64,000 nt of DNA from Chondrosia reniformis (Eukaryota; Porifera; Demospongiae; Chondrillida; Chondrillidae). Position 1 is the first letter of the stretch; each line of letters starts with the position of its first letter. The stretch covers positions 5,797,401-5,861,400 of the forward strand of contig OX359198.1 of assembly GCA_947172415.1 (NCBI GenBank). The letters run 5' to 3'. The notes under the pieces were generated by a model. It made no database searches. It saw nothing but the letters and a program-made list of their open reading frames with translations, and was not told the DNA's origin. Shown piece after piece: positions 373 to 55,900 of the stretch. Both the position numbers and the translations under genes were made by a program.

Positions 373-1336
373 TTATTCCAAAGAATAGGAAAAGGCAAAG
401 GTGCCTAGCTTCTCTGTAACTATCTCCTGACGACCTCCTCCAGACTTTTGGATCCCAGTGACCTCTGTACTGAACAGACCAATGCTATGACCATTGGAAA
501 CTTTCTTTCTCACCTCAAAAGTAATCTTGTCCCATGTGCAAGTACAAAATATTGTTTCCATGGCAATATCTTCTTGAAAATGGAGATCCTTGGATTGTAT
601 CTTTCCCTCAGTGTTATGTGAGGTGATTTGCAAGTAGTACTCCCCAGTGAAAAGCCCACTAGGTATTTGGATGCTGTGAACTTTAAGACTGCGGTAGACA
701 TACTGACACATTAAACCAGCAAAGCCCTCCACACAGCTGCACACCTCCACCCTTCCCATCCTGCTGCAAGTCGCTCCATTGCGACAAGAGTTTCGCAAGC
801 ATTGTCTCTCCTTCTTCTCTACTACAGACCACACTGAAATGCATTTATCATCACTGCAATGGTATCTCTTTGACATCTGGTTTAGTCCTTGCATACTGAT
901 AGTCTGTTTGGGGATTATCTTTGAATTACTTTCTCCATCCATTGTGCTTATAAAGAAATATTCCCAATTGTTATCTCCAAAGTTGATAACTTCATTCCAA
1001 TTCGGGACTGCTCCTTTTTCTTGTGAAAATAATTGAGTGTGGATGCCATCTTCGCTGTCTACAGCGGTCACATTGATGTAGAGGTACTGGCAGGAAGAAA
1101 TAAAATTTGACTGTTGCTGTAATCCTTCTGCATAGACCTTGAGGATTCCTCTAATTGGAGAATATCTTGCAATAGCAACAGATATGAAGGCAAAGGAAAG
1201 AGTGAAAAGAAAATCTGTAGAAGGGAACAATTCAGAATTACAATCAAAGAGTAGTATTTGCAAAAAATAGATGTACTAAAGGTTTATTGTGTTATCAGCT
1301 GTAAATTTAAAATTTCTCACTTTGAGATGTCTTCAT
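373..1336 (-). CDS. Secreted EGF-like protein with C2-like flanking regions
   Basis: Two exons are proposed: 1336-1321 (ATG, five codons plus one base, then GTGAGA) and 1214-373 (after TTCTACAG, ending TAA). The join gives 285 residues starting MKTSQNFLFTLSFAFISVAI, a convincing signal peptide; the long open frame alone has no ATG, so the small first exon is needed. A six-Cys EGF-like module lies in the middle (CLRNSCRNGATC, then CSCVEGFAGLMC). The region before it has a C2-like pattern (KVYAEGL, then YINVTAV, then PNWNEVINF), and the region after it (YYLQITS, then WDKITFEV) looks like a second weak C2-like sandwich. No membrane segment or GPI signal is seen, so it is probably secreted. It lies upstream of the U-box exons on the opposite strand. 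The function is unknown; the EGF call is firm, the C2 calls are tentative. Confidence 0.72.
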
Positions 1337-29050: not shown

Positions 29051-29404
29051 ATAAAAACATTCAAAAATGAAGTTAAAAGTAGGGATGGCACTGCAGTGAT
29101 TGGCACATCTAGAAAAAGTAACGAAACAAGAAAGTGATCATCTGGTAAGGCTAACATTGCAGAAGTGGCATACTGAAACTTAACTATACACATCACTTCT
29201 ATGTTTGGGCGCATCATGGATATACTAGAAGTAGGGATCGATGCGCCCAAACATAGAAGTGATGTGTATAGTTAAGTTTCAGTATGCCACTTCTGCAATG
29301 TTAGCCTTACCAGATGATCACTTTCTTGTTTCGTTACTTTTTCTAGATGTGCCAATCACTGCAGTGCCATCCCTACTTTTAACTTCATTTTTGAATGTTT
29401 TTAT
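29051..29404. mobile_element. Palindromic element P1, hairpin with 165-bp arms
   Basis: Arm 29,051-29,215 and its reverse complement 29,240-29,404, spacer 24 bp. I find no mismatch between the arms by eye. Landmarks are AAGTTAAAAGTAGGGATGGC, GAAACAAGAAAGTGATCATC and CTTCTATGTTTGGGCGCATC. Related, more diverged palindromes are at 31.5 and 40.4 kb. No transposase is present, so it is a non-autonomous foldback or MITE-type element. Confidence 0.92.
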
Positions 29405-31215: not shown

Positions 31216-31489
31216 TGAGCATGCTATATTTAGTCTTATGCAAGCTCCATGATTATACATATGTAAAACTATATACATAAAGCAACTGTATATGTATTGT
31301 TTTATATACAATGTCTGTAGCCATTGAATGTGTACCTATAAGGTGTCATTGAAGCTGTCGCTGTACTAGCTTCTAAGGAGACCGCATACAGTGACTGTAA
31401 AGAATTTAAAGAATTTCCTGTATATATCATCATATCATCTCGTTCATCTCTGTAAGCCATGGTCACAATAATAATAATAATAAAAGTAA

Positions 31490-32270
31490 ATAAAAAACAT
31501 TTACAAAAATGATGTTAGAAGTAGGAATGGCAGTGTTCACTAAGACATCTGCAAAAAGTATTGAAACAAGACAGTGATTATATGATAAGGCTAATCATAC
31601 AGAAGTTGCATGTATACTGAAATTTAAGTAACTTAACCATACACTTCTGTGTTTGGGCACACTAAGCTGAAGTAGGAATGGTGCGCCCAAACACAGAAGT
31701 GTATGGTGATGATGAAATGTTTTTTTATTTACTTGTATTCCCCCTTTTTTTCTTCTTAATATTACTTGTTTTAAATTGATTTGAAAGTTTTCTTGGCGAA
31801 AATCTCGAAATAACGTCCTAGACAAGAGAAATATGCCGAAAACCATGATCTCTTAATTAAAAATGGCGGCCGAGAAGACCACAATTTTCGCTTTTCATAA
31901 TTAACCTGTTTCCTGTAGAGCGCATTCAGATTTAGGGCTGTCTATTCCCTAATTCGGAAACATTTATAACGATTTATAACTTGTACGTGCCCGCATAAGT
32001 TCGCATATTAGCGCTAGTCCATTTGACAAAAGAAGAAAAAATGAATTTCGGGAATGGGCCTATTCCTGGTTAACCGCTTTTTGAACGCTGTAGAGCGTCG
32101 AATAGCGTTTTGGCATTTAGAAAAGAGTGCATGAATGGCTGCAAATAACCGAATATAACCGAAAATCGCTTCGTTGACGATTTATGAGGTGTTAATTGGT
32201 AATACATTAGATAGGGCGGCCATCTTTTTTTCCGGCCAATCCTACTTAGAGAGTACTATCGTACTCTCTG
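31490..32270 (+). mobile_element. Palindromic element P2 with a truncated second arm
   Basis: First arm 31,490-31,660 (AGTAGGAATGGCAGTGTTCA, TTCTGTGTTTGGGC); the second arm keeps only about 30 bp (GCGCCCAAACACAGAAGTGT) before it jumps to the element body. The body ends with GTACTATCGTACTCTC, as in P1. It sits directly upstream of the duplicated VWD unit. Confidence 0.8.
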
Positions 32271-32459: not shown

Positions 32460-33449
32460 TTTGATGAGATTAATTACTCAGACGGACAAACAAATATATC
32501 TAAGCTTTTCTGCAGCTGGTATATGTTGGCTCTAATGATTGGAAAGACATGGTCAGCAATATATAATATTTTAATTGGCTATATATTACAATTCCAGCCA
32601 GCTCTATAATAATTTTACTTGCCTTCTGTGTGGGTATAACCAAATATATAATAGGGGAATCAATTTCTTTTTTATTTTTATTCTTTTTTAAAAATTATTT
32701 TATGAAATATAGCAGCTATATAGAAAATTGTAATTTACAATCATAGTATACTTACTAGCTTAATTGATTAATATATATGCAAATGGATTAAATTATTGGA
32801 GTTAATAATATGTACGTACGTACAGTATATACAGTACGTAGCTGTCAGACAACCTCAATTAACATACTTATATACCATGCCTTTTAAACATTGGCCCAGG
32901 TTTCAAATGTCAACAGCAGTTATTGCAACTTAACAGGATTGATTGAAGGTCTTGCTTAAGTGATAGTTGAAATTGAAAGCAGATCTATGGTACTGTATTA
33001 TCATGGGACCTGCTTGGTGTGAGGAGGTACCAGTCACTAAAACTGAACTGGAAGCATATGGTACATGAGAAGCCTCTTTATCAAGTGAGAATACTATTTA
33101 TTCCTGACTATTGGGCATTCCACCTGAAGCCAATTAGAATAGATCATAGCCTAGCTGGGTTAATAAGAAATGCTAGCATTCCAGTTGAAACTATAGTTCT
33201 AGTGCACCCATACAAAGGCAATGAGGTCATACATAGTTAATTAATGCTCAAGTGATACTTTATAGTTCACTTACATAGAAAGGCTTCTGTTAGGACTGAT
33301 ACTCATTCTTTACTATTTGATCGAGGCACCTCACTATTCACTGTTATAAACATATATATCTGTAAATCTCTGTATGTACCTGTAAATGGTTTAGTATAAA
33401 AGGCAGTTCCTGATGGAGCTGCTTCAGCTGATATTTCACAGCAACAGAG
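32460..33449 (+). promoter_or_regulatory. Upstream region of VWD gene A, duplicated elsewhere
   Basis: Matches 27,711-28,270 and 40,805-41,680 over most of its length. It ends with the TATA box and 5' leader of gene A. The 73-codon open frame at 33,019-33,240 is not kept in the gene B copy and is not taken as a gene. Confidence 0.6.
33395..33402 (+). promoter_or_regulatory. TATA box of VWD gene A
   Basis: TATAAAAG, 47 bp before the start codon, identical in gene B (41,626-41,633). Confidence 0.7.
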
Positions 33450-34064
33450 ATGTCACCCAAGATCATACTGATATGTAAGTTTACTATAGTGTTAATTAAT
33501 AGTTTAATAGTATATATATATGGATAACTGTATTATCTTTTTATGCATGGGATGTAGTGATTTTGAGCTGCCTTACAGAAGCTCAGAACCAAGGTAAGGA
33601 GTCAATGAAATACAGGCATGTATCATGAATATACACTTGTATATATTCTAAATTGACAGTAACAGTACGCTTTGAAGAAACAACAGTTGATGTTGGCGAA
33701 GCAGATGGACAAGTTACTGTAACACTAATTGCAACACCAGCAGCAACTCAAGCCTTTCAAATTACGTTTCGCTGTTTTCCAGACAGTGCTGGAGGTACAT
33801 AATACCATAAACTATATATGTATATGTTATCTGTTGTAGGTAGGTGACGTGGATAGATAGATGTACACAGAATATATACGTATATATATATAAAATTTAT
33901 ACATGTATCTGGGTTAATTACAAAGAGAAAGTGAGGGAGAAACTTAAGAGAGAAGTTGCTTATAATGTTTCTATATGTAGACACTCTATATTAACTTCAA
34001 GGACAGATACAGTAGATGATGGTATATACGCATGTACTTACACATGCCAAAGAAGAGAGAGTGC

Positions 34065-34106
<42 letters not shown>

Positions 34107-37100
34107 AAGAGGAATTTGAAGCAATTTAACTGTCGTCTCTCTTTGTATACAGCTACTACAGATGATATCAATGGAGTCTCAAGATTCACAGCCTCCTTTG
34201 CCAATGGAGCCACAACTGCTACTTCAGTCATTAACATTAACAATGATGCAGAGGATGAAGCAACTGAGAGCATAAACTGCTTTCCAACCACCCAAGGAGC
34301 TCCAGCGTTTGTAGCTGTGACTGGAGATCTAATTATAAGCATCTTTGATGATGATTCCTTGAGTGAGTAAGGTTTTCTAGTAAATATTGCTACATGCACA
34401 TATGTATACTAATCCTAAATAATTATTGTTCTATAAACTTTATGTTCATGCATGTTTTCCGTTATATAGATTGTCCAGCTCACTTGACTCCAAGATTTGG
34501 AACTTCAAAGCCTACGTGTAACGATCGCAATCCAGCTCCCGGAGCTGAGACCTACGACTGCTACTGCCCAGTTGGACAACTAGACGTGGGAGCACTCTGT
34601 GGGACAGAGACTGATTGTCCAAGTGGTACTGGAACAGGTTCAGCAGCCGGGGATCCTCATTATCGTACCTTTGATCAGCTTTATTATGACTTATTTGACA
34701 CTTGCTATCATGTATTCTCCAAAGACTGTGAGGGTGAAACCTTTGCAGTTTACAGCTACACCACTAATCAATGCTCTGGTGGAAATATACCGACCTGTAT
34801 TGAAAGAGCAATAGTTGAAATCCCAAAATATGATAGCAGAATCATTCTAAATGGAGCTGATCTGTCCGTGACATATCAAGGAGATGTTCCACCTACTGAC
34901 AGAGTTGCAGTAATCACGGGCACTTCCATCACTGTACAGCTTTATGATTATGATGTAACAATCTCATTTTGGAGATGGTATCTCCAAGTGACAGCTAGTG
35001 ACACTTATAGCGGAAAACTCTGTGGATTGCTTGGAAATTTTGATGGAGATAGCACTAATGATTACATATTGCCAGATGGCTCCGTGTTTACTAGTGCGGT
35101 TCCCGAGTTTGAAATTGCCTACAGAGTCCAGCCCAGTGATCTAGGTCTCTTAGATGAGGTGTGTGAGCCTCAGCCACCCCAGCCTGCTCCGCCTTGCACT
35201 GGAGATCCGAAAGTGAAAGCAGAGGCTTTCTGTGCTGCCTTGCTGAATGACCCTGGATCATATGCAGCCTGTCATGACACCGTTGATCCTCAACAGTCTT
35301 ACAATGACTGCGTGCTTGACCAGTGTTTATGTCAGACTGATACATGTGGCTGTTCAGCCATTCAGGACTACTCAGACAGGTGTCAAGCTGCTGGCGTAAC
35401 CACAGGAAACCCACCTGCTGCTTGTAGTGAGTTATTATCACAAAGTATTATACGTATATAGGGGTATAGTTATGTCACATAAAGTTATATAGCTATATAG
35501 CATTAAATACTACATAGCCTAAAGCCCTAAGAAGAGAGATCTAGAAGTATATACTAATCATCTTAAATACTGCTTGTGCTACGTAATTATGTATACTTCC
35601 TATATACTTATTATATATAGTTCCAGAATGTCCAGAAGGACAAATATATAAAACCTGTGGTCCACTTGTACCTGCTACATGTGGGGATTTTGCTGGCATA
35701 GAACTGCCATGTAAGGCAGGATGCTTCTGTCCTGATGGTCTTGTTGTGAAAGATGGAGCATGTGTAGCTCCTGCAGAATGCACAAGTGAGTTTATTTTGA
35801 CATATTTAATTGAGATAAAACTGTTTTAGATATACATCAATATATTCAAAGTTAGATTTACATTTATACGTAAATGTATATATGAAAGAAATTAGAAGAA
35901 TATATACATATTAATATATAAAAATTGAGAGTGATTAGAAGCATTGGTGATATTATTATATTACATACATTTATTCAAATACAGGCGTTATTGAACCTCC
36001 AGTGGATCCTCCAAATCCTCCTGATCCAAGCTTTAAAACCTGCAGAGCTTGGGGAGATCCCCACTACACCACTTTTGATGGCGCAGTACACCACTTCCAA
36101 GGAGTCTGCTGGTATACATTTGTTAATGAAGTCAATGATAAGTTTGCAATATACAGCTATCAGAAGCTTTGCGGTGGTCAAGTAACTTGCATTCAACGGG
36201 TATCCATCAAAGTTGCTGGCTATGATGAACTAGTTAATGTAACACTAAATGGTGCCATTGAACCAGCTATAGCAGATCTTCCTCCTGACATATTTAATGT
36301 TATATTGCAGAGTGGATATTACACAATTGTTATTCAGGTTCCAGTTGACATTCAAGGAGTTTCCTTTAAGGTACCAGTGACTGTGGTATTTGGTGGTGTA
36401 TATGATCTACGTGTGACAGTACCTGACACTTTTGCAAATGAGATCTGTGGATTGTGTGGAAATTACAATGGCGACCCGGGTGATGATTTTGCTGTTCTAC
36501 TGGATAACGATACTAAAGTGCCAAACACCGATCTTGGGGACTTTGGACTATCATTTGCAAACTACGAGCTTTCAGAGGCTGAGGATTGTGAGGTGCGACA
36601 GGCTGTTCCTGAGCCATGTGAGGGAGCTAAGAGAAGAAGAGCAGAAATATTTTGTGAAGCCATTCGCAGAGAAGCCGAAGCACAAGGATGTGCTGACATC
36701 TTGAGTCCTCTGGAATTTATCAACACATGCGTGTTTGATCACTGTGCAGGGGATGACGGTGCAGGAAATATAGACACTAGTGCAGCATGTGGCTCAGCAG
36801 TTAATTACTTTGGTCGCTGTGCAGAATTGGGTTTGAGAGAAGCTACAATTCCAAATGAATGCTGTAAGTATATAATATGTAGATTTGAAACTACATGTAT
36901 TCCAAAGTGCAAATACTATGGCATAATATACCAACTGTTTCATGATACAAGTTTGTTGAACGCATATATACCTGTAATATACAGTGCCTGATTGCGCTGA
37001 AGGAGAGGAATATTCCACTTGTGGACTTGCAGAAGAACCCTCCTGCCTCAATCCTGATGGAGTAATGATACCTGGTGCTCAATGTCTACAAGGCTGCTTC

Positions 37101-39601
37101 TGCAATGCAACTGGTGGCTTTGTGAGATTTGAAGGAGAGTGTATACACTTTCTGGACTGTCCTTGTAAGTACAGTGTTTGGATTATGTATGTATGTACAT
37201 TATTAATTTGAATCTTTTTACTCAATTATTTTATGTATTAACTATTTTTTACTTTATTTAAAATGCTCATGGATTTCTCTCATATATATATATATATCTA
37301 TATATATAGAATGCTAATTTGAACATATAATTATTATGACTAATTGTTCCCAGGTTAATATAACTACATATACCATTGTAATATACCAGATGTCTTCTAA
37401 TCCATTAGTGACTGTCAGGTTTCCATGGGAAAGTGTGACTACAGAAGAAGGTCTCGGAGGAACATGTCTTGAACTTGAAGCAAGTGGAAACCTCAACAGA
37501 GACTTTAACATTTCCTTAGTTCTTAGCGAGCAGCTTTCATTTGGAGAATCTACAGGAGACCCAGGTACATAAGTATATATACAGCATTCTTAATCAAAAT
37601 ACATATATATAGTCATATAATATGTTTGTATAAATATGTGTGTATATCAAGATATATTTATAGTGCATGTCTATATTACATTTGCTATTATGATAAATTC
37701 TTAAATATATTAATGTAATCTTTACTGCATGTGTATATATCCTTTTGAAATCACTTTTAATTAGTCAAGCTTAAGGCTTTCTATTATATTAAGTGTACAA
37801 GGTTGATTGAATGTATATACATGAAGTAATGAATATGGCGGTATGCAGTTTGTATGTAGTATTATGAGAGTTTTTCTTTCCAATTTCCAGTGGATTGCTG
37901 CTGTGCGGATCCAGTCATATGTGAACTGACTAGTGAATGTAATATATGGTTCACAGCTGGACAAGAGAAAGCATGTGTCTTCATCAGAATTGATAATGAT
38001 GACATTGTTGAACCAGAGACACAAGTGACAGCCACTCTAGTTAGCACAGAAATAGGAGTTGGCACAGGAGAACCAGGAACAGCTACAATTACTATACAGG
38101 ATGATGATAGCTGTATGTTCCATATATATAACGTGTTTAAGTATAGTTACTTTGGCTCAAAATATTAGTCATATATTTCTGTATCTTATTATAACACAGC
38201 TAACAGACTCTCCTTCAGGGAGACATCATTTTATTTTGGTGAAGGAAGACCTTATAGAAGTGCAACTTTAGTACAGCTACAATCACGTGTTGATGAAGAC
38301 ATTTATTCAATCATTTCTACTGAAAGTGGAACTGCTATAGGTATATCTAGGTCTATGTATATATATATGCCATGCAGCCATTGTTGCTTGTAACTATATA
38401 TGATGACATATATAATAAAACTCATGATCAGCATGCAGATGTACATGTATAATCTGAATGTGTTGTATATATGTAAAGGTATAATATATATATATAATAT
38501 GTATTATGAAAAATGAGATATCAAAGCTATCTTATCGTAGCAGCTAGTTTTGTGATATTATTAATTATTCATTGCCTCATTCAGACGGTTATGACTATCA
38601 AGGAGGAAGGTGTATGAATTCGCTGATCAGAAGTGGTAGAACCAGTGGAAGCTTGCATCTTGCTATCCTGAGAGACAGACTCAGAGATGAACCGGAGTGT
38701 TTCTACTTCAGCCTGAGTCCTCCCGACAATGCTGATACCTTTGATCCTCCTATTGCTGCATATAACCCTCAACATGCTATTGGATGGATCCAAGGGAACA
38801 AAAGAAGACTGAGTGAGATTTATACATGTGTACAGCTTTTATTGTAACTATACTGTGTATATAATATTAAGTTAAACACAAGCTTATATTCATAGCCACG
38901 ACTCTTAATCACAAATACTATTTAGACTTAGAGATGTTTTTAATTTTGACATCGAAAACATTTAGTTAAATGTCAGTGTCAAAGAGTAAGGTATATACTC
39001 TCTAGGAAATGGCTGAAAAAACATGGTCATCCTATATATACATGTACAGTGTGCCTTATATGTAGTTATTATTATATATATTATTATATCTGACAGTGTT
39101 ACTTTAATTAAAACATAAAATAACAATATATGAACACCATGTATGCATGTGTCCATTCAATTGTATTTTGAAATAGTGGCCCCAAATACAGCAACTCATG
39201 ATTGTCATGATGCAGACAAAACTGCTGCAGAAATATGTACATCTGAACTGGGTATGTCATTGACTGCATAGTAATTATATATACATATACATATATATGC
39301 TATAATTAATTTTGTAGTTGCTGTGGTAAGATTTGAGTTTGAGTTGAATCCAAAGGATTGCTGTTTGGGATTTCTTGTGACCCTGAGAGAAGTGCTGAAA
39401 GGACCATTCCTTGATGGGGTGCAAAAGAACATCTTTGCCCTTCCTGTGCGTGGGTGTAACAACTTGACCTACAGACAAGGACAGCTCCTCCTTGTGGGAG
39501 GAACTGTAGATGCTGATGGTGACATCAAGATATCCAGCCTGTATAACTGCGATCAGTATGTTCCTCTTCTGGAAGATGTGATAGCAGCCTGTGTTGCTTG
39601 A
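33450..39601 (+). CDS. Secreted Calx-beta / VWD-C8-TIL protein, gene A
   Basis: Fourteen exons: 33450-33474, 33558-33593, 33660-33794, 34153-34362, 34470-35426, 35621-35785, 35985-36863, 36985-37164, 37409-37564, 37891-38112, 38200-38340, 38585-38812, 39177-39251, 39318-39601; 3,693 bp, 1,230 residues. All 13 introns are phase 1. Order: signal peptide (MSPKIILILILSCLTEA); Calx-beta-like (exons 3-4); Cys-rich then VWD with GDPHYRTFD and CGLLGNFDGD, and C8 (exon 5); TIL (exon 6); second VWD with GDPHYTTFDG and CGLCGNYNGD, and C8 (exon 7); TIL (exon 8); Calx-beta-like (exons 9-10); a third, weaker Calx-like unit (11-12); an unrecognised Cys-bearing C-terminus (13-14). No membrane segment is seen, so it is likely extracellular. 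VWD-C8-TIL assemblies form disulphide-linked multimers in VWF and mucins; Calx-beta plus VWD is the make-up of sponge aggregation-factor proteins. Adhesion or matrix role is inferred. Confidence 0.88.
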
Positions 39602-39927
39602 GCAACAAGCTCCGCCCCTCTCAGTCCACACATCAGATCTAACATAGGAAGTACTCAAACATTATTGGATAGAAAATGACTTCATTATTTTCTAGTAGCC
39701 TAGTTGTTAACTCACATTAGTTTACTAATTAATCTAAAAAACAATGTTTTCACCAATTGATTATTGTAGCAAGTTGTAATTGATATGAAAATTTTGTTGT
39801 ACGTTGTATGTGGAATTCAGTATTCTTAATAATGGCATATATGTCCTTTAATTAGCAGGACCTATATGAGACTGCTGTAGGTAGAGAATTACTTTGCAGA
39901 TTTTTAAATAATCATTGATAATTTTCT

Positions 39928-40139
39928 CACAGGATCAAATTTCAGGTTTCAGAAGGCATGAAACCTATCTGAAACTTCTTGAACAGCCAGGTTTCAAAAG
40001 GGTGCTCAAGTGTGTGCTAATAGATTAATTTCATAGGTTTCAAATTTTAACAGCCCCCTTTCATACCTTTTGAAACCTGGCTGTTCGAAGAGTTTCAAAT
40101 AGGTTTCATGCCTTCTGAAACCTGAAATTTGATCCTGTG
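39928..40139. mobile_element. Palindromic MITE M1, copy 1
   Basis: Near-perfect inverted arms of about 75 bp (CACAGGATCAAATTTCAGGT, CAGAAGGCATGAAACCTAT, AACAGCCAGGTTTCAAAAGG) around a spacer of about 55 bp, 0.33 kb after the gene A stop codon. The same element is at the same place after gene B (48,041-48,252), so it was there before the duplication. Confidence 0.88.
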
Positions 40140-40275
40140 TCTGTCCAACTGCTTCTACAACAGCACATGACAGTGGTTGATGCAATAACACGTTTTTGCA
40201 GAATTTGTGCATTATTTGATCTACATGCCTTGCAATTGAGAGGGAGCTATGTACATGAAGTTTGACTAAGCCCTA

Positions 40276-40800
40276 AGCGAAAATTGTGGTCTTCTCGGCC
40301 GCCATTTTTAGATAAGAGATCATGGTTTTTGGCACATTTCTCTTGTCTGAGACGTTATTTCGAGATTTTCGCCAAGAACATTTTCAAATCAATTTAAAAC
40401 AAGTAATATTAAGGGGAATACAAGTAAATAAAAAACATTTACGAAAATGATGTTGGAAGTAGGAATGGCAGTGTTCACTAATACATCTGCAAAAAGTATT
40501 GAAACAAGACACTGATTATATGATAAGGCTAATCATACAGAGTTGCATATACACTAAAATTTAAGTAACTTAACCATACACTTCTGTGTTTGGGTGCACC
40601 ATTCCTACTTGAGGTTAGTGCGCCCAAACACAGAAGTGTATGGTTAAGTTACTTGAATTTCAATGTATATGCAACTTCTGTATGATTAGCCTTATCATAT
40701 AATCAGTATCTTGTTTCAATACTTTTTGCAGATGTATTAGTGAACACTGCCATTCCTACTTCCAACATCATTTTCGTAAATGTTTTTTATTTACTTGTAT
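40276..40800 (-). mobile_element. Palindromic element P3 at the junction of the tandem units
   Basis: Body fragment 40,276-40,410 (minus sense; GTGGTCTTCTCGGCCGCC) followed by a hairpin: arms 40,418-40,599 and 40,620-40,800, spacer about 20 bp, with few mismatches. On the left it cuts off the gene A 3' flank right after GAAGTTTGACT, which in gene B continues into ACATTCAAAC. On the right the gene B upstream region starts at once. Confidence 0.88.
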
Positions 40801-41680
40801 ATATATATAATAATTTACCTGCCTTCTGCACGGGTATAACCAAATATATAATAGGGCAATCAAATTCTTTTTTAAAAATTATTTAATTAAATATAGCAGC
40901 TATATAGACAATTGCAATTTACAATCGTAGTATACTTACTAGCTCCATTGATTAATATGCAAATGGTTTAATTTATTGGAGTTAATAATATGTACGTACA
41001 TACAGTATATACAGTACGTAGCTGTCAGACAACCTCAATTAACATATTGGCCCAGGTTTCAAATGACAACAGCAGTTATTGCAACTTAACAGGATTGATT
41101 GAAGGGCTTGCTTAAATATTCATGCATGTGTAGATTTCCCTGAATATACTTAAAAGTCTTCAAGATATGGCATGTGATAGTTGAAATTGAAAGCAGATCT
41201 ATGGTACTGTATTATCATGGGGCCTGCTTGGTGTGAGGAGATACAGTCACTGAAACTGAAACTGGAGGCATATTATATACATGAGAAGCCTCTTTATCAA
41301 GTGAGAATACTATTTATTCCTGACTATTAGGCATTCCACCTGAAGCCAATTAGAATAATTGGTTTAGATCATGGTTTTAGTGCACCCATACACAAAGGCA
41401 ATGAGGTCATAAACATATTAAGTTACTATCCCTCCTTATCTGCTATATAGGCGGAAATGCAATACATAATTTCTCAAGTAATACTTTATAGTGTTCATAC
41501 ATATATCTGCTATGTAGAAAGGCTTCTGTTATAGGATTTTTTACTATTTGATCGAGGTATCTCACTATTCACTGTTATAAACATATATATCTGTAAATCT
41601 CTGTATGTACCTGTAAATGGTTTAGTATAAAAGGCAGTTCCTGATGGAGCTGCTTCAGCTGATATTTCACAGCAACAGAG
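40801..41680 (+). promoter_or_regulatory. Upstream region of VWD gene B
   Basis: Matches 32,600-33,449 with small indels, including the identical stretch around the TATA box and 5' leader. The first part (AAGCTTTTCTGCAGCTGGTA block) is missing where P3 is inserted. Confidence 0.65.
41626..41633 (+). promoter_or_regulatory. TATA box of VWD gene B
   Basis: TATAAAAG, 47 bp before the start codon, in a leader identical to that of gene A. Confidence 0.7.
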
Positions 41681-44600
41681 ATGTCACCCAAGATCATACT
41701 GATATGTAAGTTTACTATAGTGTCACTTAATAGTTTAATAGTATATATATGGATAACTGTATTATCTTTTTATGCATGGGATGTAGTGATTTTGAGCTGC
41801 CTTACAGAAGCTCAGAATCAAGGTAAGGAGTCAATGAAATACAGGCATGTATCATGAATATACACTTGTATATATTCTAAATTGATAGTAACAGTACTAG
41901 TACGCTTTGAAGAAACAACAGTTGATGTTGGCGAAGCAGATGGACAAGTTACTGTAACACTAACTGCAACACCAGCAGCAACTCAAGCCTTTCAAATTAT
42001 GTTTCGCTGTTTTCCAGACAGTGCTGGAGGTACGAAATACCATAAACTATATATGTATATGTTATCTGTTGTAGGTAGACACTCTATATTAACTTCAAGG
42101 ACAGATACAGTGGATGATGGTATATACGTATGTACTTACACATGTCAAAGAAGAGAGAGTGCTATATATATATAGAGAGAGAGAGTGCTATATATATATA
42201 TAGTAAGAGAGAGAGAGAGAGAAAGAGGAATTTGAAGCAATTTAACTGTCGTCTCTCTTTGTATACAGCTACTACAGATGATATCAATGGAGTCTCAAGA
42301 TTCACAGCCTCCTTTGCCAATGGAGCCACAACTGCTACTTCAGTCATTAACATTAACAATGATGCAGAGGATGAGGCTACTGAGAGCATTAACTGCTTTC
42401 CAACCACCCAAGGAGCTCCAGCGTTTGTAGCTGTGACTGGAGATCTAACTATAAACATCTTTGATGATGATTCCTTGAGTGAGTAAGGTTTTCTAGTAAA
42501 TATTGCTACATGCACATATGTATACTAATCCTAAATAATTATTGTTCTATAAACTTTATGTTCATGCATGTTTTCCGTTATATAGATTGTCCAGCTCACT
42601 TGACTCCAAGATTTGGAACTTCAAAGCCTACGTGTAACGATCGCAATCCAGCTCCCGGAGCCGAGACCTACGACTGCTACTGCCCAGTTGGACAACTAGA
42701 CGTGGGAGCACTCTGTGGGACAGAGACTGATTGTCCAAGTGGTACTGGAACAGGTTCAGCAGCCGGGGATCCTCATTATCGTACCTTTGATCAGCTTTAT
42801 TATGACTTATTTGACACTTGCTATCATGTATTCTCCAAAGACTGTGAGGGTGAAACCTTTGCAGTTTACAGCTACACCACTAATCAATGCTCTGGTGGAA
42901 ATACACCGACCTGCATTGAAAGAGCAATAGTTGAAATCCCAAAATATGATAGCAGAATCATTCTAAATGGAGCTGATCTGTCCGTGACATATCAAGGAGA
43001 TGTTCCACCTACTGACAGAGTTAGAGTAATCACGGGCACTTCCATCACTGTACAGCTTTATGATTATGATGTAACAATCTCATTTTGGAGATGGTATCTC
43101 CAAGTGACAGCTAGTGACACTTATAGAGGAAAACTCTGTGGATTGCTTGGAAATTTTGATGGAGATAGCACTAATGATTACATATTGCCAAATGGCTCTG
43201 TGTTTACTAGTGCAGTTCCCGAGTTTGAAATTGCCTACAGAGTCCAGCCCAGTGATCTAGGTCTCTTAGATGAGGTGTGTGAGCCTCAGCCACCCCAGCC
43301 TGCTCCACCTTGCACTGGAGATCCGAAAGTGAAAGCAGAGGCTTTCTGTGCTGCCTTGCTGAATGACTCTGGATCATATGCAGCCTGTAATGACACCGTT
43401 GATCCTCAACAGTCTTACAATGACTGCGTGCTTGACCAGTGTTTATGTCAGACTGATACATGTGGCTGTTCAGCCATTCAGGACTACTCAGACAGGTGCC
43501 AAGCTGCTGGCGTAACCACAGGAAACCCACCTGCTGCTTGTAGTGAGTTATTATCACAAAGTATTATACGTATATAGGGGTATAGTTATGTCACATAAAG
43601 TTATATAGCTATATAGCATTAAATACTACATAGCCTAAAGCCCTAAGAAGAGAGAAGTATATACTAATCATCTTATATACTGCTTGTGCTACATAATTAT
43701 GTATACTTCCTATATACTTATTATATATAGTTCCAGAGTGTCCAGAAGGTCAAACATATAAAACCTGTGGTCCACTTGTACCTGCTACATGTGGGGATTT
43801 TGCTGGCATAGAACTGCCATGTAAGGCAGGATGCTTCTGTCCTGATGGTCTTGTTGTGAAAGATGGAACATGTGTAACTCCTGCAGAATGCACAAGTGAG
43901 ACATATTTAGTTGAGATAAAACTGTTTTAGATATACATCAATATATTTAAAGTTAGATTTACATTTATATGAATATATGAAAGAAACTAGAAGAATGCAT
44001 ACATAAAAATTGAGAGTGATTAGAAGCATTGGTGATATTATTATATTACATACATTTATTCAAATACAGGCGTTATTGAACCTCCAGTGGATCCTCCAAA
44101 CCCTCCTGATCCAAGCTTTAAAACCTGCAGAGCTTGGGGAGATCCCCACTACACCACTTTTGATGGCGCAGTACACCACTTCCAAGGTGTCTGCTGGTAT
44201 ACATTTGTTAAGGAAGTCAACGATAAGTTTGCAATATACAGCTATCAGAAGCTTTGCGGTGGTCAAGTAACTTGCATTCAACGGGTATCCATCAAAGTTG
44301 CTGGCTATGATGAACTAGTTAATGTAACACTAAATGGTGCCATTGAACCAGCTATAGCAGATCTTCCTCCTGACATATTTAATGTTATATTGCAGAGTAG
44401 ATATTACACAATTGTTATTCAGGTTCCAGTTGACATTCAAGGAGTTTCCTTTAAGGTACCAGTGACTGTGGTATTTGGTGGTGGATATGATCTACGTGTG
44501 ACAGTACCTGACACTTTTGCAAATGAGGTCTGTGGATTATGTGGAAATTACAATGGCGACCCGGGTGATGATTTTGCTGTTCTACTGGATAACGATACTA

Positions 44601-47600
44601 AAGTGCCAAACACCGATCTTGGGGACTTTGGACTATCATTTGCAAACTACGAGCTTTCAGAGGCTGAGGATTGTGAGGTGCGACAGGCTGTTCCCGAGCC
44701 ATGTGAGGGAGCTAAGAGAAGAAGAGCAGAAATATTTTGTGAAGCCATTCGCAGAGAAGCCGAAGCACAAGGATGTGCTGACATCTTGAGTCCCCTGGAA
44801 TTCATCAACACATGTGTGTTTGATCACTGTGCAGGGGATGACGATGCAGGAAATATAGACACTAGTGCAGCATGTGGCTCAGCAGTTAATTACTTTGGTC
44901 GCTGTGCAGAATTGGGTTTGAGAGAAGCTACAATTCCAAATGAATGCCGTAAGTATATAATATGTAGATTTGAAACTGCATGTATTCCAAAGTGCAAATA
45001 ATATGGCATAATATACCAACTGTTTCATGATACAAGTTTGTTGAACGCATATATACCTGTAATATACAGTGCCTGATTGTGCTGAAGGAGAGGAATATTC
45101 CACTTGTGGACTTGCAGAAGAACCCTCCTGCCTCAATCCTGATGGAGTAATGATACCTGGTGCTCAATGTCTACAAGGCTGCTTCTGCAATGCAACTGGT
45201 GGCTTTGTGAGATTTGAAGGAGAGTGTATACACTTTCTGGACTGTCCGTGTAAGTACAGTGTTTGGATGTACGTACATTAATTTTTTACTCAATTATTTT
45301 ATGTATTAACTATATTTACTTTATTTAAAATCCTCATGGATTTCTCTCATATATATATATCTATATAGAATGCTAATTTGAACATATAATTATTATGACT
45401 AATTGTTCCCAGGTTAATATAACTATATATATGTATATATCATTGTAATATACCAGATGTCTTCTAATCCATTAGTGACTGTCAGGTTTCCATGGGAACG
45501 TGTGACTACAGAAGAAGGTCTTGGAGGAACATGTCTTGAACTTGAAGCAAGTGGAAACCTCAACAGAGATTTTAACATTTCCTTAGTTCTTAGCGAGCAA
45601 CTTTCATTTGGAGAATCTACAGCAGACCCAGGTACATAAGTATATACACTGTATAACAGCATTCTTTATCAAATATATATAAATATGTGTGTATATCAAG
45701 AGATATTAATAGTGCATGTCTATATTACATTTGCTATTATGATAAATTCTTAAATATATTAATGTAATCTTTACTGCATGTGTATATGTCCTTTTGAAAT
45801 CACTTTTAATTAGTCAAGCTTAAGGCTTTCTATTATGTTTATTTTTTGTGTACACATACAGTTGATTGAATGCATATATATATATGAAGAAATGAATATG
45901 ACGGTATGCAGTTTGCATGTTGTATTATGAGAGTTTTTCTTTCCAATTTCCAGTGGATTGCTGCTGTGCGGATCCAGTTATATGTGAACTGACTAGTGAA
46001 TGTAATATATGGTTTACAGCTGGACAAGAGAAAGCATGTGTCTTCATCAGAATTGATAATGATGACATTGTTGAACCAGAGACACAAGTGACAGCCACTC
46101 TAGTTAGCACAGAAATAGGAGTTGGCACAGGAGAACCAGGAACAGCTACAATTACTATACAGGATGATGATAGCTGTATGTTCCATATATAATGTGTTTA
46201 AGTATAGATACTTTGCCTCAAAATATTAGTCATATATTTCTGTATCTTATTATAACACAGCTAACAGACTCTCCTTCAGGGAGACATCATTTTATTTTGG
46301 TGAAGGAAGACCTTATAGAAGTGCAACTTTAGTACAGCTACAATCAGGTGTTGATGAAGACATTTATTCAATCATTTCTACTGAAAGTGGAACTGCTATA
46401 GGTATTTCTAGGTCTATGAATATATATATGCCATGCAGCCATTGTTGCTTGTAACTATCTATGATGACATATATAATACAACTCATGCATCAGCATGCAG
46501 ATGTACATGTATAATCTGAATGTGTTGTATGTAAAGGTATAATATATATATATAATATGTATTATGAAAAATGAGATATCAAAGAAATCTTATCATGACA
46601 GCTAGTTTTGTGATATTATTATTAATTATTCATTGCCTCATTCAGATGGTTATGACTATCAAGGAGGAAGGTATATGAATTCACTGATCAGAAGTGGTAG
46701 AACCAGTGGAAGCTTGCATCTTGCTATCCTGAGAGACAGACTCATAGATGAACCGGAGTGTTTCTACTTCAGCCTGAGTCCTCCCGACAATGCTGATACC
46801 TTTGATCCTCCTATTGCTGCATATAACCCTCAACATGCTATTGGATGGATCCAAGGGAACAAAAGAAGACTGAGTGAGATTTATACATGTGTACAGCTTT
46901 TATTGTAACTATACTGTGTATATAATATTAAGTTAAACATAAGCTCATATTCATAGCCACGACTCTTAATCACAAATACTATTTAGACTTAGAGATGTTT
47001 TTAATTTTGACATCGAAAACATTTAGTTAAATGTCAGTGTCAAAGAGTAAGGTATATACTCTCTAGGAAATGGCTGAAAAAACATGGTCATCCTATATAT
47101 ACATGTACAGTGTGCCTTATATGTAGTTATTATTATATATATTATTATATCTGACAGTGTTACTTTAATTAAAACATAAAATAACAATATATGAACACCA
47201 TGTATGCATGTGTCCATTCAATTGTATTTTGAAATAGTGGCCCCAAATACAGCAACTCATGATTGTCATGATGCAGACAAAACTGCTGCAGAAATATGTA
47301 CATCTGAACTGGGTATGTCATTGACTGCATAGTAATTATATATATATACATATACATATATATGCTAATTAATTTTGTAGTTGCTGTGGTAAGATTTGAG
47401 CTTGAGTTGAATCCAAAGGATTGCTGTTTGGGATTTCTTGTGACCCTGAGAGAAGTGCTGAAAGGACCATTCCTTGATGGGGTGCAAAAGAACATCTTTG
47501 CCCTTCCTGTGCGTGGGTGTAACAACTTGACCTACAGACAAGGACAGCTCCTTCTTGTGGGAGGAACTGTAGATGCTGATGGTGACATCAAGATATCCAG

Positions 47601-47664
47601 CCTGTATAACTGCGATCAGTATGTTCCTCTTCTGGATGATGTGATAGCAGCCTGTGTTGCTTGA
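41681..47664 (+). CDS. Secreted Calx-beta / VWD-C8-TIL protein, gene B
   Basis: Fourteen exons: 41681-41705, 41787-41822, 41889-42029, 42269-42478, 42586-43542, 43731-43895, 44070-44948, 45070-45249, 45476-45631, 45954-46175, 46261-46401, 46646-46873, 47238-47312, 47381-47664; 1,232 residues, all introns phase 1. It is a tandem copy of gene A with intact frame and the same domain order. About 25-30 amino-acid differences were counted by eye. They include a two-residue insertion (LV) at the start of the first Calx-like unit, a Cys to Tyr change (GGRCMNS to GGRYMNS, exon 12), Ala to Arg and Ser to Arg in the first VWD (TDRVRVITG, DTYRGKL) and Val to Gly beside the second VWD core (FGGGYDL). Both VWD metal-site-like GDPHY motifs and CGLxG motifs are kept. 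Introns differ by microsatellite length only. Function as for gene A. Confidence 0.88.
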
Positions 47665-48040
47665 GCAACAAGCTCCGCCCCTCTCAGTCCACACATCAGA
47701 TCTAACATAGGAAGTTCTCAAACATTATTGGAAAGAAAATGACTTCATTATTTTCTAGTAGCCTAGTTGTTAACTCACATTATAATTAGTTTACTAATCA
47801 ATCTAAAAAACAATGTTTTCACCAATTGATTATTGTAGCAAGTTGCAATTGATATGAAACTTTTGTTAAAAAAAAACTTTTGTTGTACGTTGTATATAAA
47901 ATACAATGATAACTATGGAATTCAGTATTCTTAATAATGGCATATATATATATATGTCATTTAATTAGCAGGACCTATATGAGACTGCTGTAGGTAGAGA
48001 ATTACTTTGCAGATTTTTAAATAATCATTGATAATTTTCT

Positions 48041-48252
48041 CACAGGATCAAATTTCAGGTTTCATATTGCATGAAACCTATCTGAAACTTCTTGAACAGC
48101 CAGGTTTCAAAAGGGTGCTCAAGTGTGTGCTAATAGATTAATTTCATAGGTTTCAAATTTTAACAGCCCCCTTTCATACCTTTTGAAACCTGGCTGTTTG
48201 AAGAGTTTCAAATAGGTTTCATGCCTTCTGAAACCTGAAATTTGATCCTGTG
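48041..48252. mobile_element. Palindromic MITE M1, copy 2
   Basis: As the 39.93-kb copy, with one arm changed (CATATTGCATGAAACC in place of CAGAAGGCATGAAACC), so this hairpin is less perfect. Confidence 0.85.
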
Positions 48253-51200
48253 TCTGTCCAACTGCTTCTACAACAGCACATGACAGTGGTTGATGCAATA
48301 CCACGTTTTTGCAGGATTTGTGCATTATTTGATCTACATGCCTTGCAATTGAGAGGGAGCTATGTACATGAAGTTTGACTACATTCAAACACATGCATGA
48401 CTACTGGTTATAGACCATTTATAACTTGCACACAGGGGCATGAAAGGCTAAAGCCTTAATGTAAATGTACATCAAATCTGCTATGGTTACTAACTGAGAC
48501 CCTTATAAAGACTGGCTCTATGTACTACACACCTACCCCAACTGAACTACGGTAGCTAGGAGTTAGTAGTTACTGGGGACTGGTTGACATGCTAAATCTG
48601 GTATAGTCCTATTGGATAAATGTACTCCAGGTCCTTTACAGTTGTTATACTCAATGTTGAATCCATGCAAATTTCCTTGATTCAATACTTCGTTTCACTT
48701 TCTTTCACACATATATACGAAAATGGGTTTAGTCCATAACTTTATTAATTCCCTACCACTCAGTCCTTCTTTCTTAATTGGATAAGTTGCTAGGTAACTC
48801 ATGACAATTCTTCTGTGTAAATAGATGAATATATATATATAGTAAATAAAGTATATATAGGTTGCACAACAAGCTATATATATACTTGGATAATCAAATG
48901 TTAGTTTTTGTTTTAAGTACTTGAAGTACAAATTACACTTTGAACAATCTCACAAATATGTCTTACATGAGGTAAAGATGCTAATTAATATGCTCATTGT
49001 AACTTAAAAAGAAAAACAAATATTATAAATTTAAAGAGACTATACAGTTGTCTAATTCTCTAAATAAGATGATCTACCAAACAGTGTAGCTTAGGCATAA
49101 CACCGACATGTACTACATGTTGTCTCCACTAATGAATTTTTACTTTCTTAATTAAGTTCCCAGTACAACCTTCTGATGCATCACATGATCACTAGCTGTC
49201 TTATAAGAGTGTTTCTGTAGTCACCATATGTACTAGCTATAGCTAGTCGCTGTTGTAAATATTCAGTGCACCAATTTAATTTCTCGAATATCAAAGGCTC
49301 TGGTCATGGGAGAGCTTAAGTTATTACACTTATATCTGGACAGGATCATTTTCGTACCAAGCACTGAAGTTGCAAAACTAAACTTGAAGGGTTTTTATCT
49401 CATGAGTAAATACTTTTTACTTCTGATTATCTAGACTGAAACCTATAGAAAAGCATTCCAATGGCAACACAGTCCTATATTAATGAGAAAATCAGTCCAG
49501 TTGAAGCCACTATAGTACTATTATACATACATCCTCGTAAGCTCTTATGTAATATATATGTAACAATGTACATTATTGCGTTCATAATACAATGCTAAAT
49601 TTAATGTTAAAGGGAGCAAATGGGCACATGTAGTTGGCTGAAGGCTATAGCTACGTAGTTTAATATTTTACACATAAATAGAAATGTATATACAATTAGC
49701 CATGCTGATCTTTCTGGTATATATAAAAAATATAAAGGCAGTTAACACATACATATAACATGGTATATTCAAAGGATAGGCATAGATTATCATATAACTT
49801 TACACAGAATTTGCGTAATTAACTCCTTTTTTCACTATAAGCACTCATGTAGTCTTGCTTACATTTAGGCGGTAGTCGGCACCCAGAGTTTACTTGTAAT
49901 GAAACCACAAGTGTTTTGGTGGTGGTAGATTGAAGACAGTTATATGGAATGCAGTAGTCTTAAAATTATGGCATATAGAGCCAGTCTTTTAAGGGTCTCA
50001 GTTAGTAACAATAGCAGATTTGATGTACATTTACATTAAGGCTTTAGCCTTTCATGCCCCTGTGTACAAGGTATAAATGGTCTATAACCAGTAGCTTATG
50101 TTCGAATGCAGTCAAACTTAATGGTCTTACATAGCTCCCTCTCAATTGTAAGGCATGTCAATCAAATAATGCATATTCAAGACACAAATCCTGCTAAAAC
50201 ATGTTATTGCATCAACCACTGTCTTGTGTTGTTGCAGAAACACTTGGACAGAAATTGTCAATGATTATTTAATAATCTCTAGAGTCTATTTCTCTACCTA
50301 TAGCACTCACAGATAGGTCCTGATAAAAGGACATACACAAGCAGTATATAGCATACACATTACATCACCTTTATACAACAAATTAATGTTTCTTTCTTCA
50401 AGTACATCCCCATTAATAGTGGCTTTGAAGAAACTGCCTATAATCTCAATCACGATCAGCTGACTACCACTTGTCAAATGTGTGAAGTTTGTTCTACAAA
50501 TGAGAGCCACATGAACAATTATTTTCAATTGACTGGTTGCCAGGGAACTGAACCTGGTTGCTATGGAGACCTTTCTATAGAAATAAAGGTAGGCTATACA
50601 AGATGTACAATGAAAGCACATTTAGACAACTCAGATGGGCCAGCACTGCACCACTCCTAAATGAGTGTATAGCCATGCTACATCACCTAACCACAACTGG
50701 AAAAGACCCTATATCAGGTATACCAGTTGGACAAATTTAATCTAGGTCATTTAAAGAATTCCTCTATATATCTAGTTACCATGGATACTCAAGAAGAGTA
50801 AAAACAAATAGATAATCTAAGTAGCTACAGAAACAAGTTTTACCAATTTACCTATTAACTAGCTAGTGTCAAAGTTAATAAACTTTAATAATCTGGCTCA
50901 AAGGGATTGTACATTTTCATAGCTAAGTAGGATACAGAGAATCTGATAAGCCTGTACTACACACCTCCCCCAACTGAACTATGGTAGCTAGGAGTTACTA
51001 GTTACTAGGGACTGATAGACATGCTATATCTGGTAGTCCCATTGGACAAATGTACTCCAGGTCCTTTATACTCACTGCTGCAAATCTCCCTTGATCCAAT
51101 ACTTTCTTTCACTATTATTTCCCACCTGAATGGGTTAAGCCAATTACTTTAATGATCCCTTACCACTCAGTTCTTCCTTCTTAATTGGACATGTTGCTAG

Positions 51201-52640: not shown

Positions 52641-52964
52641 GTACTACAGCAAGCCACTCAAAAGAAGGAAACAAAGCTAGAACATGGTCTCTTTACAACC
52701 GTGAAGAACTAAAAAACCATATTTGTTTTCTTTTTAATTTTGGAAGTAGATATGTATATTTCTATATGTATATTTCAGAATTGTCAAACAAAAATGATCA
52801 TCGATTATACGATGATACTAGTGAAATATAGCTTATAACAAATGAATCCATCTATAAGCATGCAGTATACTCTTGTAAATTCTTGCATAACAAGCATAGT
52901 TATAAAATTACGTAGCTGCCATCAATACATATAGATAAAACTTTTTCCCTTTTTCCCTGTAAGA

Positions 52965-52972
52965 TCACGTGA
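52965..52972 (+). promoter_or_regulatory. CLEAR-like E-box at the acid sphingomyelinase start
   Basis: TCACGTGA inside ATCACGTGAC, 7 bp before the start codon. It matches 9 of 10 positions of the CLEAR element (GTCACGTGAC) bound by TFEB/MITF factors near lysosomal gene starts in vertebrates. It must lie in the leader or at the transcription start. Confidence 0.4.
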
Positions 52973-52979
52973 CAGGATA

Positions 52980-55900
52980 ATGTACCCTGTACTGTTGATT
53001 CTCTCTGTCCTACCTTTTGCCTCTTTCAGTAATCCATTGTTGACTTTTCATGAAGAGAATAAGCTCGCAGGAGCAAGCGATGGATCTTTCTTAAGACTTA
53101 CCAAATTAAAAAACGTTTTAACAGACAAAGGTTTAGAGTGTTCAGCATGCAAGACTATTGCGAACATCCTTCAAGAGCTCTTTGTAAAGAACGCCACGGA
53201 AGAAGAGATAGTTAAAATAATTACTTTCCTGTGTATCCAATTTAAAATAGAAGACGAGCTCGTGTGTACGGCAGTAGTCATCGAATTCAAGGTATTCACA
53301 CACGCCCTATTAGCTGGCAACCACGCCTATATTATCAAGGATGCCTCGTATAGTTTATCAAAGTGTGCAAATATTCCTACATATACAATTGTATTGGATG
53401 TAGAGTGTCCAAATTCCTGTAACATCTTTGTTAGGATGAGGTTTTGTCCGTTTTTGACGAAGTCGCCCTCAGTCCGGAAGAAGCTTGTGGGGTACTCCTC
53501 GGACCGGACTGTGGTAGGCCGTATGATCCGTGGAACCAGACTTGGACAGTTCGATTGCCGAATGTTCCTAAACCTCCGGTTAAGCCAGTTAAACCTCCAA
53601 AGGTAAACTGGATTCTTGTTCCTATTTTTCGGAATTTACTATTGACTATGTGGGACGTATGCCCTCTCTTGCAGCCTGGCTCTCCGGTTACAAATATTTT
53701 GTTTCTCTCTGATATCCATTTTGACAAGAATTATACAATTGGCTTTAATGCTGAGTGTGGGGAACCACTTTGCTGTAGACCGCCGAATGGGCCTCCACGT
53801 TAGTTTGGACCAATGTATATAGCATAATTATGTAATAACAATGCAGCATAATATATTACACAATGTACTAATAATGTGTTCTTCCCTCTTATATATACAC
53901 AACTTGCAGCTGTTGGCAAACGGGCAGCTGGTAAATGGGGAGATTACAACTGTGACTGTCCTCTGCAGACATTGGAGAACTTGTTGCAACATCTTCAGGG
54001 AATTAAGGATAAAGTTAATGGAGAGACTGCATGACTTATATATATGTAGACCAGTAGACTGAGAACTTAACAGTTATTTCCATATCAATTATATAGTTTG
54101 ACTGGATCTATTTAACTGGTGATCTCCCTGCCCATAATGTGTGGAACCAGACAAGGGAAGATCAGTTGTACATCCTTGAAGTAATCACGCATCTCTTAAA
54201 AATGTACCTCCCAGATAAGGTTGTTTATCCAGCGCTAGGCAACCATGAAGGAGCACCAGTGAACAGGTAATACCTAATTATACTCTATGCATTGTAATAC
54301 ATATAGAAAGAAACCCCCTATGTACGTATGAGTACTGTAAAACACCATTTTCCTACATATTACATCTATTCTACAGTAAAAGGCCTAGCTAGTGAGGATA
54401 CAAGAATCTTCTCTTTATTCCTCTGTTTCACTGGGTCATATATATGTATGTATGGTTATTCAACATTTTAAATGGTCACATGGATGAGTAATCTAGAACA
54501 TCATTTTCCTTCACCTAAAACCTGAGATTATTAATCTGTAACTGAGAATTTCACGTATAGGGAGCATCAGAAGAGGTTTCATTTCTTCTCTTTGTCACTT
54601 AACTCCACTAAGGAACACAGTATACTGTAATCAAATGTATCATTTTCCTCTTTCTAGTTTTCCTCCCCCTTTTGTCACTGGTTACAACTCTAATCAGTGG
54701 TTGAGAGATGCACTAGATAAGTACTGGTCCACCTGGCTCCCTGCTGATACATCAGAAACTATTAGAAAGTAAATTAATCCACCTCATAAGCTCGTAATTA
54801 TCACATTCATGAGAATGAGTTTACTTGGAAAACTGAAAACAATGCATTTAAGTAACACTATAGACTGTTATCATTTACACACCAACTCATCTGCTGTATT
54901 CCCTTTAGAGGAGGTTACTATACTGCTCAGATCAGAAAGGGACTGAGAGTGGTGTCCATTAATATGAACTATTGCAACAACATGAACTGGTGAGTTGCAT
55001 TAGCTCTTCAGCCAATTGTAGGTTCAGTGCACTCCATTATCCAGGCCTGTACGCAGCTCCAAGACTGGGGGTCCTTCTGCTCTCAAAGTAGAACTCATCA
55101 TATAGATTAACATGTAGCATGTGATGCTTTCTCATTTGCCATGTGTGAAGTGTTTCGCATACCACCCCCCAATTTTTGGCGTGCACAAAGAGAAGGTTTA
55201 GCTCATGTTTGCTAGCTAGCAGCTAAGGCTCTACCAATATAATAATAAGTTGGTGCCCAGGACTCCTAGGTGGGCGGGGGGTTCTTTCAACCTTCCATTG
55301 TCACTCCACTTGAACCTTCCATAGTCACTCTTAGCACTTGGACATTTCCTTCTTGCTCAGGTGGCTACTTATCAACAGTACGGATCCGGCTCAGCAGTTG
55401 AGTTGGTTGGCTGATGTTCTCCAGAAGGCAGAAGATGAAGGAGAAAAGGTTCATATTATTGGACACATTTTCCCAGGCTCTGGAGATTGTCTCAAATCCT
55501 TTTCCTGGCAATACTATGACATCATCAACAGGTGTGAGATTATAACCACTGATTACACCACTTTTATGCATCTACAGACATAGGTCTATGATGTCATGAT
55601 CCATGTACTATATATAGATATGAAAGTACAGTTGTAAACCAGTTTTTTGGACATGCGCATACTGATTTCTTTGAAATGTTTTACGATTTGAAAAACAGAA
55701 CAAGACCAACAAAGTGAGTTCCATCTTAAGTTATGACATATAATTATAATACTGATCTTTGTTATATATAATGTATGATAATAAAACAGTCTATTTAATG
55801 GTGTTTATCGGAATTATAACACTCTAACCTTGTTTGCTGAATGCAGTGTTGTCTTTGTGGGCCCAAGTGTGACAACATATACAGGACTGAACCCAGGGTA

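Follow-up and report, generated by a model that had tools for sequence, protein, structure and literature searches.

Two adjacent genes in a 64,000-nucleotide stretch of the genome of the demosponge Chondrosia reniformis (the window, C10:5797401-5861400) combine Calx-beta with VWD-C8-TIL assemblies, raising the question of whether they encode aggregation-factor core proteins, multimer-forming relatives of VWF and the mucins, or secreted proteins of another kind. The first possibility had been put forward in the original prediction from the window's sequence, which also pointed to the part of VWD-C8-TIL in multimer formation by VWF and mucins. We examined the pair, here called genes A and B, and searched the genome (15 contigs, 117,379,552 bases) for relatives of its domains.

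Gene A was spliced by hand, and gene B by mapping followed by a splice-aware protein-to-DNA aligner. Hand splicing of A gave 13 of 13 introns as GT-AG and 13 of 13 in phase 1, with a coding sequence of 3,693 nt including the stop, corresponding to 1,230 residues with no internal stops. Gene B is intact as well, and its exon 3 acceptor may lie at 41889 or 41895, either of which is in frame, giving 1,232 or 1,230 residues, respectively. The tandem pair of intact 14-exon genes described in the original prediction is thus borne out by the open frames of both genes and by two splicing methods for B, and its figures of 1,230 residues and a span of 33450-47664 are both exact. Coordinates of all features are collected in Table 1.

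Comparison of the window with itself aligned 33974-40268 with 42072-48381 at 95% identity, and 32605-33843 with 40806-42078 at 82% identity. The two coding sequences differ at 59 of 3,693 nt and the proteins at 26 of 1,230 residues (dN 0.0099, dS 0.0376, dN/dS 0.26 over the whole gene), and intron identity is 97.5% (2,229 aligned bases, gaps excluded). A and B arose by a recent tandem duplication; each is a young copy, and each is under constraint. The proteins contain 72 (A) and 71 (B) cysteines and five and eight N-glycosylation motifs, respectively. The highest hydropathy in A starts at residue 5, and past residue 30 gene A encodes no membrane-like stretch (19-residue hydropathy ≤1.32).

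The surroundings of the pair hold several further elements. A perfect inverted repeat with 165-nt arms separated by 24 nt lies at 29051-29404, and gene A is flanked by further inverted pairs (31480-31893 with 40275-40800). Open frames elsewhere in the window match ribosomal protein L10 (57418-57921, minus strand) and Nop (61197-61601, plus strand) in Pfam and, below the Pfam cut-off, transglutaminase N (7876-8463, minus) and saposin B (52935-53603, plus). Another at 373-1275 (minus), which by eye resembles the N-terminal part of a Notch ligand and ends in EGF-like sequence, has no Pfam match at E 0.01, and a minus-strand open frame contains 9.5 copies of a 25-base repeat at 6686-6923.

Table 1. 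Genes, exons and domains of the tandem pair and location of its paralogues (window positions unless a contig is named).
Feature	Position	Strand	Basis or remark
Gene A	33450..39601	+	14 exons; splice sites, open frame, phase-1 introns
Gene A exons 1-7	33450-33474, 33558-33593, 33660-33794, 34153-34362, 34470-35426, 35621-35785, 35985-36863	+	
Gene A exons 8-14	36985-37164, 37409-37564, 37891-38112, 38200-38340, 38585-38812, 39177-39251, 39318-39601 (stop)	+	
A signal peptide, exons 1-2	33450..33593	+	Putative; by reading of sequence
A Calx-beta 1, exons 3-4	33660..34362	+	Pfam 31.3 bits scanned alone; cut-off 27
A TIL'-like Cys-rich unit ahead of VWD1, start of exon 5	34470..34628	+	Pfam TIL in paralogues F, D, both below cut-off
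A VWD1	34640..35083	+	Pfam; GDPH 34649-34660; CGLLG
A C8-1	35228..35404	+	Pfam and genome C8 search
A TIL-1, exon 6	35621..35785	+	Pfam
A VWD2	36041..36490	+	Pfam; GDPH 36053-36064; CGLCG
A C8-2	36650..36835	+	Pfam and genome C8 search
A TIL-2, exon 8	36985..37164	+	Second Pfam TIL stretch; placed by exon content
A Calx-beta 2, exons 9-10	37409..38112	+	Pfam 23.8 bits, under cut-off; profile vs PDB
A Calx-beta 3, exons 11-12, divergent	38200..38812	+	Pfam 21.7 bits, under cut-off; profile vs PDB
A probable NTR (netrin/TIMP/C345C-like) module, exons 13-14	39177..39601	+	Family profile comparisons
Gene B	41681..47664	+	14 exons; mapping and splice-aware protein-to-DNA alignment
Gene B exons 1-7	41681-41705, 41787-41822, 41895 (or 41889)-42029, 42269-42478, 42586-43542, 43731-43895, 44070-44948	+	
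Gene B exons 8-14	45070-45249, 45476-45631, 45954-46175, 46261-46401, 46646-46873, 47238-47312, 47381-47664 (stop)	+	
B VWD1	42756..43199	+	C10:5840156-5840599
B C8-1	43344..43520	+	C10:5840744-5840920
B VWD2	44126..44575	+	C10:5841526-5841975
B C8-2	44735..44920	+	C10:5842135-5842320
B probable NTR module, exons 13-14	47238..47664	+	Family alignment
Genes C, D, E, F	C10:7.03 Mb; C10:6.459 and 6.468 Mb; C5:6.538 Mb		Gene models

A Pfam scan of A returned VWD (158.9 bits, two stretches), C8 (66.1 bits, two), Calx-beta (63.5 bits, three) and TIL (42.4 bits, two), so that the profile search proposed in the original prediction recovers each of these domains. The Calx-beta assignment, which had been offered there as open to refutation, finds significant matches in all three places: when the units are scanned singly, exons 3-4 score above the Pfam cut-off, and exons 9-10 (E 4.7e-5) and 11-12 (E 2.1e-4) fall just below it. 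The stretch of paralogue D equivalent to the sub-threshold Calx-beta of A reaches 32.5 bits. When a profile built from five units (three from A, two from C) was compared with the PDB, 10 of its 11 hits with E ≤1 were Calx-beta domains of NCX, the best at E 3.2e-6. Judged by Pfam PF03160 and by the match to NCX structures, A carries Calx-beta domains. Ahead of VWD1 lies a further Cys-rich unit that Pfam does not match to TIL in A; the corresponding unit scores as TIL in F (23.6 bits, E 5.7e-5) and D (18.5 bits, E 0.0023), both below the cut-off of 24.5, and on these matches an EGF-like assignment was dropped for a TIL-like one. The domains listed in the original prediction therefore stand, the list having missed this TIL-like unit and having called new a C-terminus that is probably of a known type.

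That C-terminus (exons 13-14) draws no Pfam match in A. Alignment of the six family members described below over this domain gives 15 invariant columns, four of which are cysteines, and the resulting profile has eight PDB hits up to E 10, namely complement C5 four times (the best being its C345C domain, E 0.024), the NTR domain of procollagen C-proteinase enhancer (PCPE, 0.72), a designed TIM barrel (0.89) and actinohivin twice (1.8 and 1.9). In Pfam, NTR is matched by three of the six members (best E 0.024, A not among them) and TIMP by one (E 0.014), and one also draws SH3_9 (E 0.19). For comparison by hhalign, a small NTR alignment was assembled from netrin-1, an sFRP-like NTR of the sponge's own genome (which passes the Pfam cut-off, the gene being sFRP-like by eye) and an own-genome stretch just below the cut-off. 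The C-terminal profile aligns with it over 77 columns at E 0.0017, with a probability of only 15%; none of 200 column shuffles reached the score of 24.6 (maximum 16.0), and the controls gave 9.8 (Calx-beta) and 11.8 (reversed NTR alignment). As a yardstick, the sole PDB match of the own-genome sFRP-like NTR itself is netrin-1 (E 0.21). AlphaFold2 gave no usable model for exon 14 alone (pLDDT 40). The matches to NTR, TIMP and C345C are weak and consistent across these profile comparisons, and the C-terminus of A and B is probably a divergent NTR (netrin/TIMP/C345C) module.

A protein search of the genome with the C-terminal domain (nine matches with E ≤1, drawn from eight candidates of a loose first pass) found, besides A and B, only the four loci of genes C to F, of which D and E on C10 are tandem duplicates too. 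Models of all four follow the A/B plan, with uncertain signal-peptide exons, and in C, D and F, those scanned with Pfam, VWD, C8 and TIL (two or more each) are joined by Calx-beta. The N-terminal Calx-beta of C lies outside the scanned piece and was seen by tblastn and with the family profile; in D the best Pfam Calx-beta stretch is the C-terminal one, the N-terminal one not being confirmed separately. The model of C is without most of the TIL'-like unit, and its C-terminal domain shares 47% identity with that of A. As far as gene models can tell, then, one plan is common to six genes of this sponge genome, the one genome searched for the family, and it runs: signal peptide, Calx-beta, TIL', VWD1-C8-TIL, VWD2-C8-TIL, Calx-beta, Calx-beta, NTR-like end. 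Adjoining F on C5 (6544900-6551900, L033) is a further candidate, gene G, whose two type-1 VWD-C8-TIL assemblies lead into sequence that is sushi-like and VWA-like by eye. It was left out of the family because it has no NTR-profile match, because neither of its VWDs is of type 2, and because its model continues into this sushi-/VWA-like sequence.

The D assemblies point to a particular relative. Without its signal peptide, A matches FCGBP best in the PDB (8rde, E 3e-140), as does its second assembly alone (E 2e-97); VWF (E 6e-59), MUC2, MUC5AC and MUC5B also match strongly. The kinship with VWF- and mucin-type proteins that the original prediction had drawn from these assemblies is thereby upheld, the assemblies being full VWD-C8-TIL units. 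Covalent multimers of VWF and the gel mucins are defined by CGLC motifs in the assemblies together with a C-terminal cystine knot. Were A and B to form such polymers, their D assemblies pairing through disulfides into long multimers, the strong VWF and mucin matches would be accounted for, and VWD2 does retain the second Cys of the CGLC motif in six of six family members (CGLCG in A and B). VWD1, however, has CGLLG in place of CGLCG in all six, a difference that speaks against the first assembly pairing as in VWF; Pfam finds no cystine knot in A, neither A nor B has a Ser/Thr/Pro-rich stretch (maximum 36% in any 50 residues), and the best PDB match is FCGBP, not VWF. We therefore regard polymers of this type as quite unlikely. 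A to F probably belong with the FCGBP/D-assembly type, secreted chains in which C8 and TIL come after VWD. Both VWDs of A and of B carry GDPH, and so do 11 of 12 VWDs across the family, the exception being VWD1 of F, which has GDLR. The motif also occurs in some mucin VWDs. The GDPH of FCGBP cuts itself, and the cleavage raises the protease resistance of the domain (PMC10880436).

The two VWD types also occur outside the family. In a tree of VWDs (36 of 36 rows kept, one C4 fragment row, L034_-1, remaining without a group) the A-F family and a tandem array on contig C4 share two VWD types with support of 100/99 and 97/95, and the combination of VWD1 with VWD2 is thus an old building block of this genome. 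The tree counts two changes for each VWD type because the second VWD of gene G (row G_VWD2), labelled type 2 by its position, fell among type 1. The C4 array (C4:1492825-1588461; L034, L035 and L040) is a very large tandem region holding 37 of the genome's 77 VWD matches, in which near-identical units of ~2.7 kb in three blocks alternate the two types. Its flanking open frames are fibronectin III-like and transmembrane-like by eye, and neither the Calx-beta nor the NTR profile of A-F finds a match in the stretches of the array that were read.

The remaining question is whether A and B could be aggregation factors, that is, core proteins of the sponge cell-adhesion proteoglycan. Sponge aggregation factors count the Wreath domain among their features, and for their composition we relied on passages of the literature and the genes computed on contig C9. 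A genome search for Calx-beta (150 of 458 candidates scored) gave at least 154 matches, most of them, among the matches listed, on C9. There, C9:5660000-5700000 contains two related genes (L037 and L038), most of whose matching open frames are 77-99% identical, the last being 53% identical. Each has a long Calx-beta array, then one weak VWD (27.4 and 25.7 bits, respectively) without GDPH, C8 or TIL, and a conserved C-terminal block; none of the genome's 53 C8 matches is on C9. These two genes are candidate aggregation factors of Chondrosia reniformis.

For A and B to be of the same kind would fit the occurrence of Calx-beta and VWD types together in one secreted sponge protein, and relatives of their Calx-beta units are indeed present in the C9 array genes (E down to 8e-9 by blastp in a two-protein database). 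Beyond that, Calx-beta and VWD are common to both as domain types only. The C9 genes, with many Calx-beta units and one GDPH-less VWD, look like the real type, whereas A and B have full VWD-C8-TIL assemblies with GDPH. In the phylogeny, which the original prediction had proposed as a check, the C9 VWDs do not join those of A and B among the 36 VWDs; they stand apart on a branch of 4.4 changes per column, beside a C6 VWD (83/79) with C8 nearby, and since the placement of so long a branch is unsure, the tree speaks for their distance and not for their precise place. The C-terminal blocks of the C9 genes, taken as a stand-in for Wreath, find nothing better than E 0.25 in A or B, and a motif search of both proteins found no RGD. 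An aggregation-factor role for A and B is accordingly rated as very improbable. From the type of VWD, the distance in the tree and the unmatched C9 C-terminal blocks we conclude that A and B appear not to be aggregation factors of the C9 type, although the Calx-beta units of the two are related.

Taken together, our results suggest, with a probability of about 0.6, that A to F are secreted glycoproteins of matrix or mucus, rich in disulfides and probably self-nicked, with arms made of Calx-beta units and an NTR-like end that binds a ligand. By analogy with FCGBP, each VWD would cut itself at the Asp-Pro of GDPH in the secretory pathway, leaving a nicked, disulfide-held, protease-resistant core, on either side of which the Calx-beta units would form stiff arms, probably loaded with Ca2+. 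NTR modules bind collagen, glycosaminoglycans or proteases, and the NTR-like end may dock to a matrix or mucus partner, so that the product would be a secreted linker of matrix (mesohyl) or mucus and not an aggregation factor. A different use of the same kinship would be recognition in mucus or immunity, the proteins acting as an FCGBP-like microbe trap at the surface of a microbe-rich sponge or within its canals, and the duplicates reflecting selection either for diversity or for dose. Among solved structures FCGBP is the closest relative, tandem duplicates occur twice (A/B, and D/E on C10), and the microbiome of Chondrosia reniformis is described as typical of a high microbial abundance sponge (PMC12181767). 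Against this stand the purifying constraint across the whole A/B gene (dN/dS 0.26) and the Pfam scan of A, which finds no lectin or immune-type domain, and we consider such a role rather unlikely.

Within the preferred reading, that of secreted matrix or mucus glycoproteins, one narrower proposal may be mentioned. Tensilins are TIMP-like proteins of echinoderm mutable collagenous tissue. In Chondrosia reniformis, mesohyl stiffness is under cellular control and stiffening factor(s) are released, according to titles cited in PMC5742840. By analogy with tensilins, A to F might conceivably belong to this stiffness machinery and be the reported secreted stiffening factor(s), acting through Ca2+-dependent Calx-beta arms, self-nicked D assemblies and a TIMP/PCPE-like NTR end binding collagen fibrils; we offer this as a highly speculative idea that is improbable as it stands. 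If the NTR end does bind collagen, A to F would be concrete candidates for the means by which cells change the stiffness of the Chondrosia mesohyl. More generally, this demosponge family joins FCGBP-type D assemblies, Calx-beta and a probable NTR, and it is separate from the aggregation factors with which its list of domains is easily confused. Among the papers listed for Calx-beta with sponges, VWD domains or aggregation factors, titles and opening parts of abstracts do not describe this plan, and of those listed for Calx-beta together with VWD, NTR or C8 domains none contains Calx-beta.

Comparison with known systems places the family as follows. With sponge aggregation-factor core proteins, represented by the C9 candidates, A and B have in common Calx-beta plus VWD in one gene, whereas the C9 genes have a Calx-beta array, a single VWD lacking GDPH, C8 and TIL, and another C-terminus. 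The C4 array genes alternate the same two VWD types as A-F but do so in many pairs, set in near-identical repeats and accompanied by stretches that by eye are fibronectin-III-like and membrane-like. FCGBP, the best PDB match, likewise has VWD-C8-TIL assemblies with the GDPH self-cleavage motif; human FCGBP has 12 assemblies plus a lone VWD (PMC10880436), in contrast to the two assemblies of A and B, which have Calx-beta on either side and an NTR-like end. VWF, MUC2, MUC5AC and MUC5B resemble A and B in their successive VWD-C8-TIL assemblies and in the CGLCG of VWD2; they differ in that D1 and D2 of VWF lack in alignments the GDPH present in the A/B VWDs, and in that A and B have no cystine knot or VWA (Pfam) and no mucin stretch. 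Finally, the C-terminal domain of A-F shows weak, consistent matches to the NTR modules of netrin, sFRP, PCPE, TIMP and complement C3-C5 but, in the papers searched, no protein turned up that unites NTR with VWD-C8-TIL and Calx-beta as A-F probably do.
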